Assembly: GCF_000421605.1 (NCBI RefSeq)
Contig: NZ_ATXI01000001.1
Coordinates: 1 to 64,000 of the forward strand
Length of the DNA stretch: 64,000 bases
Reading direction: 5' to 3'
Origin: Thermodesulfobacterium thermophilum DSM 1276
GTDB lineage: Bacteria > Desulfobacterota > Thermodesulfobacteria > Thermodesulfobacteriales > Thermodesulfobacteriaceae
Part shown: positions 13,379 to 16,328 of the stretch, one piece after another
How positions within the stretch are numbered: the stretch's first letter is position 1
Layout: every line of letters starts with the position of its first letter
Translations under genes and position numbers: made by a program
The notes under the pieces: generated by a model
Database searches by the model: none
Seen by the model: only the letters and a program-made list of their open reading frames with translations
Told to the model about the DNA's origin: nothing

Positions 13379-14893
13379 TTACTCCTGGTTTAAGATTTGA
13401 ATGTTAGCTATTTTAGCAGAAAAAATAGACAAAACCTCCTTTACTTCAGGCCTTTCTTTTATTTCTTCAACCTTAGGTTGAGATACAGGCTCAACCTCTA
13501 TGTTTACTGTTTTTTTAAAAAAGTCTTTAATCTTTTCTATAAGCTCTTCAAAATGTGGAGAATTTTTTAGTGTTGTTTTAACTCTTAAACGTATATGGGA
13601 GGCATCAAAAGAAGGGTCAGGTAAACTTTTGGCAAGACCAAACAAAAGAGGACGTTCCCTTTTAAGTTTTTCTAAAAACTCTTGCCAGGTTTTCTCATCG
13701 GAAACCTGAGGCTCTTTTTTTTCTTCAACTTCAGCTACCAAAGGTTCTGAGCTTACCTGACCAAAGGTAAGGTTAGGAAGGCTTTCAAGTTTTTCTATCA
13801 GTTTGTTTATCGGAACCAATTTAGCTTGTTCACAAATCCTTACCAAGGCTAACTCAAACTGTAGTTGAGGATAACTACTTCTTCTTAAAACCTCAAGGTC
13901 TCTGGTAAGACTTTGTAAAACCAAAAAGATTTCTTCCAACTCATACTCTAAAACCAGGTCCACAAGCTGAGGATTTTGGAATGGCTGAGTTTTTTCATGA
14001 GGTAAGGCTTTCATCAAGAAAAGCTCTCTAAAAAACTCAGTAAGTTTTTCCATAAGATAGATCAAATCTATTCCTTGTTCATAAATCTTTTGAGCCACTT
14101 CTAAGGTTTTCCTTAGATTTTTTTCTAACAATACTTGGGCTAACTCTTCTATCAAAAGGGCTTCATGCCATCCAAAAGCCTGGATGATATCTTCTTTGGT
14201 ATGACTACCATAGGCCATAGCCTGATCTAAAAGCGATAGGGCATCCCTTAAACTCCCTTGAGCTTCCTTGGCAATAAGCCTTAAGGCATCTTCTTCTATT
14301 TGATAGTTTTCTTTTTCACAAATAGACTTGAGATGCTTTATCAACTGAGGCAGGTCTAACTTTCTAAAATCATAACGTTGACATCTCGAAAGTATGGTAG
14401 GTAAAAGTTTATTTGGCTCTGTAGTAGCTAAGATAAAATAAACGTGGGAAGGAGGCTCTTCTAAAGACTTAAGCAAGGCGTTTGAAGCCTCTTTGGTAAG
14501 CATATGGGCTTCGTCTATGATGTAGACCTTAGCTTTACCTCTGGTAGGGGCATATTTAAAGTTTTCTATGATTTCACGGATCTGGTCTATACCTCTGTTT
14601 GAGGCAGCATCTATCTCTATAACGTCTACAAAAACCCCGCGGTTAATCTCCAAACAATTAGGACACTGATTACAGGGCTCGTACCCGTCAATTAAGTTTA
14701 AGCAGTTTAAAGCTTTAGCTACAATCCTTGCTATCGTGGTCTTACCTGTTCCCTTGATACCAGAAAATAAAAGGGCATGAGAAAGTTTCCCAGATTTTAT
14801 AGCATTAGCTATAGTCTTAACTACATGGATTTGACCGATTACTTCACTAAAAGTCTGAGGTCTATACCTTCTGGCTAAAACCAAATAAGACAT
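13379..14893 (-). CDS. dnaX: DNA polymerase III subunit gamma/tau
   Basis: This is the clamp-loader ATPase. SGIKGTGKTTIAR is the Walker A, followed by a zinc-binding cysteine cluster (CLNLIDGYEPCNQCPNCLEI), the DEAH Walker B (IIDEAHMLTKEA), and sensor and arginine-finger segments (ATTEPNKL, ILSRCQRYDF). Domain III and a shorter tau-like tail follow, 504 residues in total. I see no obvious slippery A-run giving a gamma form, though this was not tested. The gene starts 16 nt after the small TGA-containing gene, so that gene is probably cotranscribed. Confidence 0.95.
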   Translation of the reverse strand: MSYLVLARRYRPQTFSEVIGQIHVVKTIANAIKSGKLSHALLFSGIKGTGKTTIARIVAKALNCLNLIDGYEPCNQCPNCLEINRGVFVDVIEIDAASNRGIDQIREIIENFKYAPTRGKAKVYIIDEAHMLTKEASNALLKSLEEPPSHVYFILATTEPNKLLPTILSRCQRYDFRKLDLPQLIKHLKSICEKENYQIEEDALRLIAKEAQGSLRDALSLLDQAMAYGSHTKEDIIQAFGWHEALLIEELAQVLLEKNLRKTLEVAQKIYEQGIDLIYLMEKLTEFFRELFLMKALPHEKTQPFQNPQLVDLVLEYELEEIFLVLQSLTRDLEVLRRSSYPQLQFELALVRICEQAKLVPINKLIEKLESLPNLTFGQVSSEPLVAEVEEKKEPQVSDEKTWQEFLEKLKRERPLLFGLAKSLPDPSFDASHIRLRVKTTLKNSPHFEELIEKIKDFFKKTVNIEVEPVSQPKVEEIKERPEVKEVLSIFSAKIANIQILNQE

Positions 14894-14909: not shown

Positions 14910-15128
14910 CTATTTTGAAAGTTTACAACCGAAACCTGAAATCCAACTCTCTTTTAGTTTTTCGATTTCTTCCTCATATTCTTTTGCAGGCCTCTCCATA
15001 CCACAGGTAAGACACCTTACCTTAGCCTTAGCTCAGGTGCCCTCTAAAACCGCCTTTCCTCCGCAGTACTTACACGTAAGATAATCCTCGCTCTCCTTTG
15101 TTTTATAAAGTTCTGAAGACCTTTCCAT
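14910..15128 (-). CDS. Candidate dual-CxxC small selenoprotein (in-frame TGA)
   Basis: A 72-codon frame runs from ATG (15126-15128) to TAG at 14910-14912 and is interrupted only by TGA at codon 32 (15033-15035). Before it: MERSSELYKTKESEDYLTCK, then YCGGKAVLEGT. After it: AKAKVRCLTCGMERPAKEYE and a Lys/Glu helix ending GFGCKLSK. C19xxC22 and C39xxC42 flank the recoded site, as in a zinc-ribbon or redox miniprotein. A 6-bp hairpin follows exactly 11 nt after the TGA. I recall a database family described as a small dual-CxxC (seleno)protein, unverified. Alternatives are a nonsense-mutated gene or a sequencing error. It begins 6 nt after lhgO ends and precedes dnaX by 16 nt. Function is unknown. 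Confidence 0.72.
15006..15021 (-). promoter_or_regulatory. Putative bacterial SECIS hairpin
   Basis: The minus-strand sequence GGTAAG-GTGT-CTTACC is a perfect 6-bp stem with a 4-nt loop starting with G. It begins 11 nt after the TGA, so the loop starts 17 nt after it. E. coli fdhF has the same 11-nt spacing to its minimal SECIS hairpin, and a G in the first loop positions is a family rule. Pairing of AGGCT with GGCCT further out may extend it with an internal loop. SelB would bind it to insert selenocysteine. Confidence 0.65.
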
Positions 15129-15134
15129 TTTTCT

Positions 15135-16328
15135 CTAAAAAAATCGAGTTACTACATATTCTGCAAAAGGAAGACAGGCTGTAAAGGCTGGAGAAACGGC
15201 ATTTAAAATATGAAGGCTATGTTTGTCCCCTTCTATCACAAAATCCTGAACTAACTCCAAGGTATTCTTGTTTAAAAGTTGAGCTCTTATCCCTGGCTTG
15301 CCCCATCTGTTAAAACCTTTTTCATCCATTCGGTAGACCAACTTTTTAGCCTCCTTTATCAGATACCTCCTATGATATTTCTTTAGCTCATCCAAGGCAA
15401 GACTCCTAAACTTAGGATTTTTAAAAAAGAGTAGGCCTAAATAACCTGTAATTTCAACCAACTCAGAAAACCTTAGGTTAGAAAAAATCTGATAGTTTTC
15501 TCTCGAAAAACAAGGGGTAGCCGTAGGGCCTATTTTAATGGTACCGTCAACTTTTATCGTAAAATGAACACCTAAGAAAGGATTTTTAAGATTTGGCGTG
15601 GGATAGATGTTTCTCGAGATAAACTGAGAATTGCCTGTATATTCCAGATAAAGTCCTTTAAAAGGTAAGATAACGTAGTCTTTACCAAAACCAAAGTCTT
15701 TGGCTATCTTATCCGCATAAAGACCGGCTGCGTTGATGATTTTTTCTGCAGAAAAAACAAGGTCTCCTGCTAAAATGGTATTTTCATCAAGTCTTTTTTG
15801 ATAAGGAGTTTTAAAGAAAAACCTTACTCCTTCTGCCTCTAGGTCTGTTTTAAAAGCATGTAGGATCTCTATAGGATTTACGGTAGAGGTGTTAGGACTC
15901 CAAAGGGCTAACTGAAAGGTTCTTGCGTTAGGTTCGATTTCTTTAAGTTCTTTTTCGTCTATCAGATAAACTTCTACTCCGTTAGCCTCACCCCTTCTTT
16001 TTAGTTCATAAAGGGTAGGAAGGTCTTCTTCAGATTTAGTTACCACTACCTTTCCACATTTTCTAATACTAAGGCCTTTGGCCTCGCAATAACGAGTAAG
16101 TTCTTCGTTCCCCTTTTTAGTGAATTTAGCTTTTAGCGAATCTGGATAGTAGTAAAAACCTGCATGAAGCACCCCACTATTTCTTCCACTACTATGAGCC
16201 CCCAGTGTCTCTTCTTTTTCTAAGACAATGATTTCTTTTTCTGGAAAACGCGTTTTTAATTTTAAAGCCAAAGCAAGTCCAACGATGCCTGCTCCGATGA
16301 TAAGAAAATCTGTCTTTATTTTTGGCAT
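15135..16328 (-). CDS. lhgO: FAD-dependent oxidoreductase, L-2-hydroxyglutarate oxidase-like
   Basis: This DAO-family flavoprotein oxidises 2-hydroxy acids; LhgO clears L-2-hydroxyglutarate and passes electrons to the quinone pool. The FAD Rossmann motif is FLIIGAGIVGLALALKL (8-24), followed by GAHSSGRNSGVLHAGFYY, the LhgO hallmark, then INAAGLYADKIA and a C-terminal NAVSPAFTACLPFAEYV. At 397 residues it is full length. A promoter lies just upstream (16335-16362). The tiny TGA-containing gene begins 6 nt downstream, so the pair may be functionally linked. The exact substrate is inferred from family similarity. Confidence 0.85.
   Translation of the reverse strand: MPKIKTDFLIIGAGIVGLALALKLKTRFPEKEIIVLEKEETLGAHSSGRNSGVLHAGFYYYPDSLKAKFTKKGNEELTRYCEAKGLSIRKCGKVVVTKSEEDLPTLYELKRRGEANGVEVYLIDEKELKEIEPNARTFQLALWSPNTSTVNPIEILHAFKTDLEAEGVRFFFKTPYQKRLDENTILAGDLVFSAEKIINAAGLYADKIAKDFGFGKDYVILPFKGLYLEYTGNSQFISRNIYPTPNLKNPFLGVHFTIKVDGTIKIGPTATPCFSRENYQIFSNLRFSELVEITGYLGLLFFKNPKFRSLALDELKKYHRRYLIKEAKKLVYRMDEKGFNRWGKPGIRAQLLNKNTLELVQDFVIEGDKHSLHILNAVSPAFTACLPFAEYVVTRFF

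Follow-up and report, generated by a model that had tools for sequence, protein, structure and literature searches.

Between lhgO and dnaX, on the reverse strand of the window (the whole 64,000-nucleotide stretch of Thermodesulfobacterium thermophilum DSM 1276 DNA that was analyzed), lies a 72-codon frame running from an ATG start to a TAG end (15128 to 14910), the sole interruption of which is a TGA at codon 32 (15035-15033). Translation of the reverse strand over this interval gives MERSSELYKTKESEDYLTCKYCGGKAVLEGT-U-AKAKVRCLTCGMERPAKEYEEEIEKLKESWISGFGCKLSK*, and the TGA falls between two cysteine pairs, C19xxC22 and C39xxC42. The ATG is located 6 nt past the end of lhgO (15135), and 16 nt separate the TAG from the start of dnaX (14893). 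The initial annotation of this DNA had described the same ends, number of codons, TGA position and cysteine pairs, which proved to be correct to the base, and the distances it gave to the two neighboring genes are those measured here. It also expected standard gene callers to overlook the gene; the sole product of standard calling at this locus is a 31-aa ORF, and what is confirmed here is a gene that this procedure cuts down to a stub. Among the 20 frames of at least 70 codons present in the window which can be read through a single TGA, it is the only one that is not covered for the most part by a larger ORF. The features identified are listed in Table 1.

Table 1. Features of the lhgO-dnaX region, with their positions in the window.
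Feature	Position	Strand	Evidence
Putative selenoprotein gene, 72 codons (ATG to TAG), UGA (Sec) at codon 32, two CxxC pairs	14910..15128	-	Translation, homology
In-frame UGA (putative Sec-32)	15033..15035	-	TGA in 56/58 and TGC (Cys) in 2/58 branch members
SECIS-like hairpin AGGUAAG-GUGU-CUUACCU, loop 18-21 nt past the UGA codon	15005..15022	-	Folding, covariation
lhgO, L-2-hydroxyglutarate oxidase, upstream neighbor	15135..16328	-	NF008726, 330 bits (cut-off 299)
dnaX, DNA polymerase III gamma/tau, downstream neighbor	13379..14893	-	ORF and neighbor identification

Conservation of the TGA codon and selenocysteine machinery

Matches to the read-through frame were found in 44 of 198 related genomes, nearly all of them with one internal TGA, and both the homology and the conservation of the TGA extend over the genus, the family, the order and the phylum. 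A set of 58 homologs from the phylum, referred to below as the window branch, was assembled using a custom profile together with the loci obtained in the searches of related genomes and of the phylum. At site 32, these sequences carry either TGA (56) or the cysteine codon TGC (two, both from one genus: L092, 'IAGKCENSKVVC', and L105), and no residue other than Sec or Cys was found among them. In the classical branch of the family described below, the Sec site is occupied by TGA in 17 sequences and by Cys in 22. If only one genome with an in-frame stop were considered, the same picture would be expected from a sequencing error or from a recent nonsense mutation in a pseudogene, but this TGA recurs at the corresponding codon in 56 sequences, which come from different genomes and many families, and where copies from the same genus differ, most of the changes on either side of the TGA affect the third base of a codon. 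The conservation of the TGA in assemblies made independently already refutes this explanation, which was rejected on the grounds of this conservation and of the Cys homologs and can be given practically no credence.

All the genes required for selenocysteine incorporation were identified in the genome: selA (G000:C1:83525, 552 bits), selB (G000:C1:117884, 388 bits with a cut-off of 242), a Sec-type selD (G000:C3:6179-7111, 342 bits) and the tRNA-Sec gene selC with the anticodon UCA (tca). The inventory of this machinery and the comparison between homologs at site 32 had both been suggested along with the initial annotation, and both gave results in line with it. The selD gene of this genome (L079) has an in-frame TGA of its own, and since this is so, its selenophosphate synthetase is probably itself a selenoprotein.

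A 7-bp hairpin begins 10 nt past the UGA, and its loop lies at +18 to +21. Located shortly 3' of the UGA and carrying a G in its apical loop (GUGU), as a SECIS element does, the hairpin is conserved. In an alignment of 24 relatives, standard pairs occur in 168 of the 168 cells, and this proportion drops to at most 54% when the register is shifted. No variation occurs in four of the seven pairs, which are therefore uninformative, and one pair covaries between A-U and G-C at synonymous sites, the third base of a Val codon and that of a Leu codon, which may correspond to one event or a few. The more distant members form another hairpin, in which an AGGUC-type loop is often found about 20-26 nt past the UGA; this loop resembles that of the SECIS element of Escherichia coli fdhF. 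The folding of the region was compared with that of synonymous-codon shuffles in which the amino acids and the local codon usage were kept. Among the 56 Sec members, the mean z-score was -1.34 and 36% of the sequences were below p = 0.05, while the window gene itself gave z = -2.07 (p = 0.03); the 22 classical-branch members with Cys showed no excess (mean z = -0.16). As the sequences are mutually related, a p-value combined over them cannot be read at face value. When the bases 5' of the UGA were included, a competing structure formed and the z-score was -1.76.

A conserved TGA, taken by itself, is compatible with any kind of recoding, and decoding as tryptophan or leaky read-through might be considered. 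At this site, however, homologs carry cysteine and never tryptophan, the genome has the full Sec machinery and the hairpin stands at the distance appropriate for Sec; the reading as tryptophan was rejected in view of the conservation and the Cys homologs, and neither form of recoding has any real likelihood. Because the TGA is conserved with Cys alternatives, the Sec machinery is complete and a conserved SECIS-like hairpin lies at the right distance, the proposal that the UGA is read as Sec, already made in the initial annotation, is supported, and judging from the sequences the 72-aa product is very probably a selenoprotein of the NF041197/OS_HP3 group. This high confidence applies to the selenoprotein reading alone and does not extend to the role in sulfite reduction discussed below. 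SelB would bind the hairpin just 3' of the UGA and deliver the Sec-tRNA to this codon.

The NF041197 family and its two branches

The protein matches the NCBIfam model NF041197 (CxxC_Se_CxxC) with 41.7 bits when Cys is put for Sec, the cut-off being 40, and the CxxC - Sec/Cys - CxxC elements are found at matching distances. This model bears the catalog name "dual CXXC motif small (seleno)protein" and is listed in the tables of reviews as the hypothetical protein OS_HP3 with the motif RxU, for which these reviews credit the Olavius algarvensis symbiont study (PMC13188914; PMC9312934). Since NCBIfam and the selenoproteome reviews already name the family, this kind of selenoprotein is not new: NF041197/OS_HP3 appears to cover the window protein, though only just at the score with Cys for Sec, and shares with it its small size, the two CxxC pairs, the intervening Sec or Cys at near-equal spacing and the phylum. 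Novelty is the only point on which the initial annotation has to be corrected.

The window protein nevertheless differs from the classical members of NF041197. The search of the phylum and the profile scan distinguished a window form, with the motifs C-x2-CGG, G-x-U (x being mostly T, R, K, N or H) and V-x-C-x2-CG and with a Glu-rich helix, from a classical form characterized by R-x-U/C and by a C-terminal CDR[IL] (as in CDRI) or IIYD tail; these classical marks are missing from the window branch. Both forms are present within one genome in many cases (for example G030-G034, G068, G181, and G260), and because they coexist in this way they look like old paralogs; in the phylum search, the genome of the window was found to carry the window form only. 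In genome searches, the window form scores below the NF041197 cut-off (32.8 bits against 40 for the window locus, with the UGA unresolved), whereas most of the classical Sec forms score above it, so that an entire second branch of the family is barely captured by the catalogued model. A tree also splits the two branches, with weak support (73/73) over just 50 columns. One possible reading of these differences, which we consider with reserve, is that the window branch forms a selenoprotein family of its own, sister to NF041197 and outside it. The genomic scores, the contrast between G-x-U and R-x-U, the missing tail, the coexistence of the two forms and the separation in the tree are in its favor; the score obtained when Cys replaces Sec, which exceeds the cut-off, the identical order and near-equal spacing of the Cys and Sec elements, and the weakness of the tree support argue for membership. 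What the catalog entry does not contain is the placing of the window protein in a separate branch, found beside dsr genes in several lineages.

Some low-scoring relatives (L113, L114, L096, L099, and L103) also show a TGA between their Cys pairs, as in CPECRQPLRLHPSUQG and in CICGNPLILMRRUSG, the latter with CxC; these sequences are possibly further branches of the same selenoprotein group.

Predicted fold, genomic neighborhoods and dissimilatory sulfite reduction

The structure model of the protein is zinc-ribbon-like and consists of three strands and a helix (mean pLDDT 65.9, with 75-83 in the core blocks). The sole sequence matches in the PDB were to the eS27 zinc ribbon, at E = 0.04 or worse; a Foldseek search with the model gave no match below E = 0.001, and nothing convincing was found in PHROGs. 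The four cysteines of the two CxxC pairs would coordinate a zinc ion within a small fold of the zinc-ribbon type, and in the model Sec-32 would sit in a turn between two strands, distant in sequence from the metal knuckles, where its selenol would take part in redox or sulfur-transfer reactions in the vicinity of the Dsr pathway. Of this scheme, the part that concerns Sec is nearly certain; zinc binding and the connection with Dsr we infer. The Lar restriction-alleviation family has a similar zinc-ribbon-like CxxC arrangement and gives weak profile matches, but the window protein stays below both curated cut-offs (PF14354, 21.4 bits against a gathering cut-off of 28.6; TIGR03655, 19.8 against 39.6), and membership of this family was rejected on the former score.

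Within the genus, the gene mostly stands before dnaX, and in related genera it is found beside topA or an MrpORP-like gene. The dnaX and topA neighbors, taken together with the weak Lar match, might point to a zinc-ribbon factor binding nucleic acids, or a Lar-like one, involved in DNA metabolism. This role is improbable, however, given that the Lar score is under the cut-off, that the neighbors vary among genera and that the conserved Sec points to chemistry and not to binding alone.

Strong dsrA matches were detected in 44 of 45 carriers of the gene (tallied by hand from the result tables), versus 188 of the 395 genomes of the phylum sample overall (Fisher p = 9e-15, the genomes being treated with no correction for shared descent). 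The one exception is G338, in which the gene is located on a 3.8-kb contig. In ten genomes the window-branch gene is a close neighbor of dsrA, which it directly adjoins in G068 and G215 and from which it is at most about 6 kb away in G030, G104, G238, G280, G300, G319, G372, and G390; it adjoins dsrP and dsrO in eight genomes. No dsr neighbors were found in the window's own family, where lhgO and dnaX, topA or an Mrp-type gene occur instead. The fact that nearly all the carriers are dsrA-bearing (sulfite- or sulfate-reducing) and that the gene is part of the dsr cluster in several families suggests, as the most likely though still tentative role, that the protein assists the Dsr pathway as a small redox or sulfur-relay accessory. 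The further-reaching proposal that the window branch is a family of its own, with a function distinct from that of OS_HP3, and serves dissimilatory sulfite reduction (DsrAB/DsrMKJOP) as a selenium-dependent accessory seems rather unlikely. No connection between selenoproteins and Dsr was found in the titles and abstract openings of the literature, and the linkage provides a functional lead for an uncharacterized selenoprotein.

The gene is dispensable, since six genomes of the same genus have no match to it, five of which (G002, G003, G005, G009, and G012; L121-L125) have kept selB and carry other sequence upstream of dnaX. Just upstream of dnaX in G012 (L122), the sequence KEICCQVPKRF* can be read, which resembles KEIYCQVPKRF*, the C-terminal end encoded by the G008 copy (L008), and is possibly the remnant of a deleted gene.
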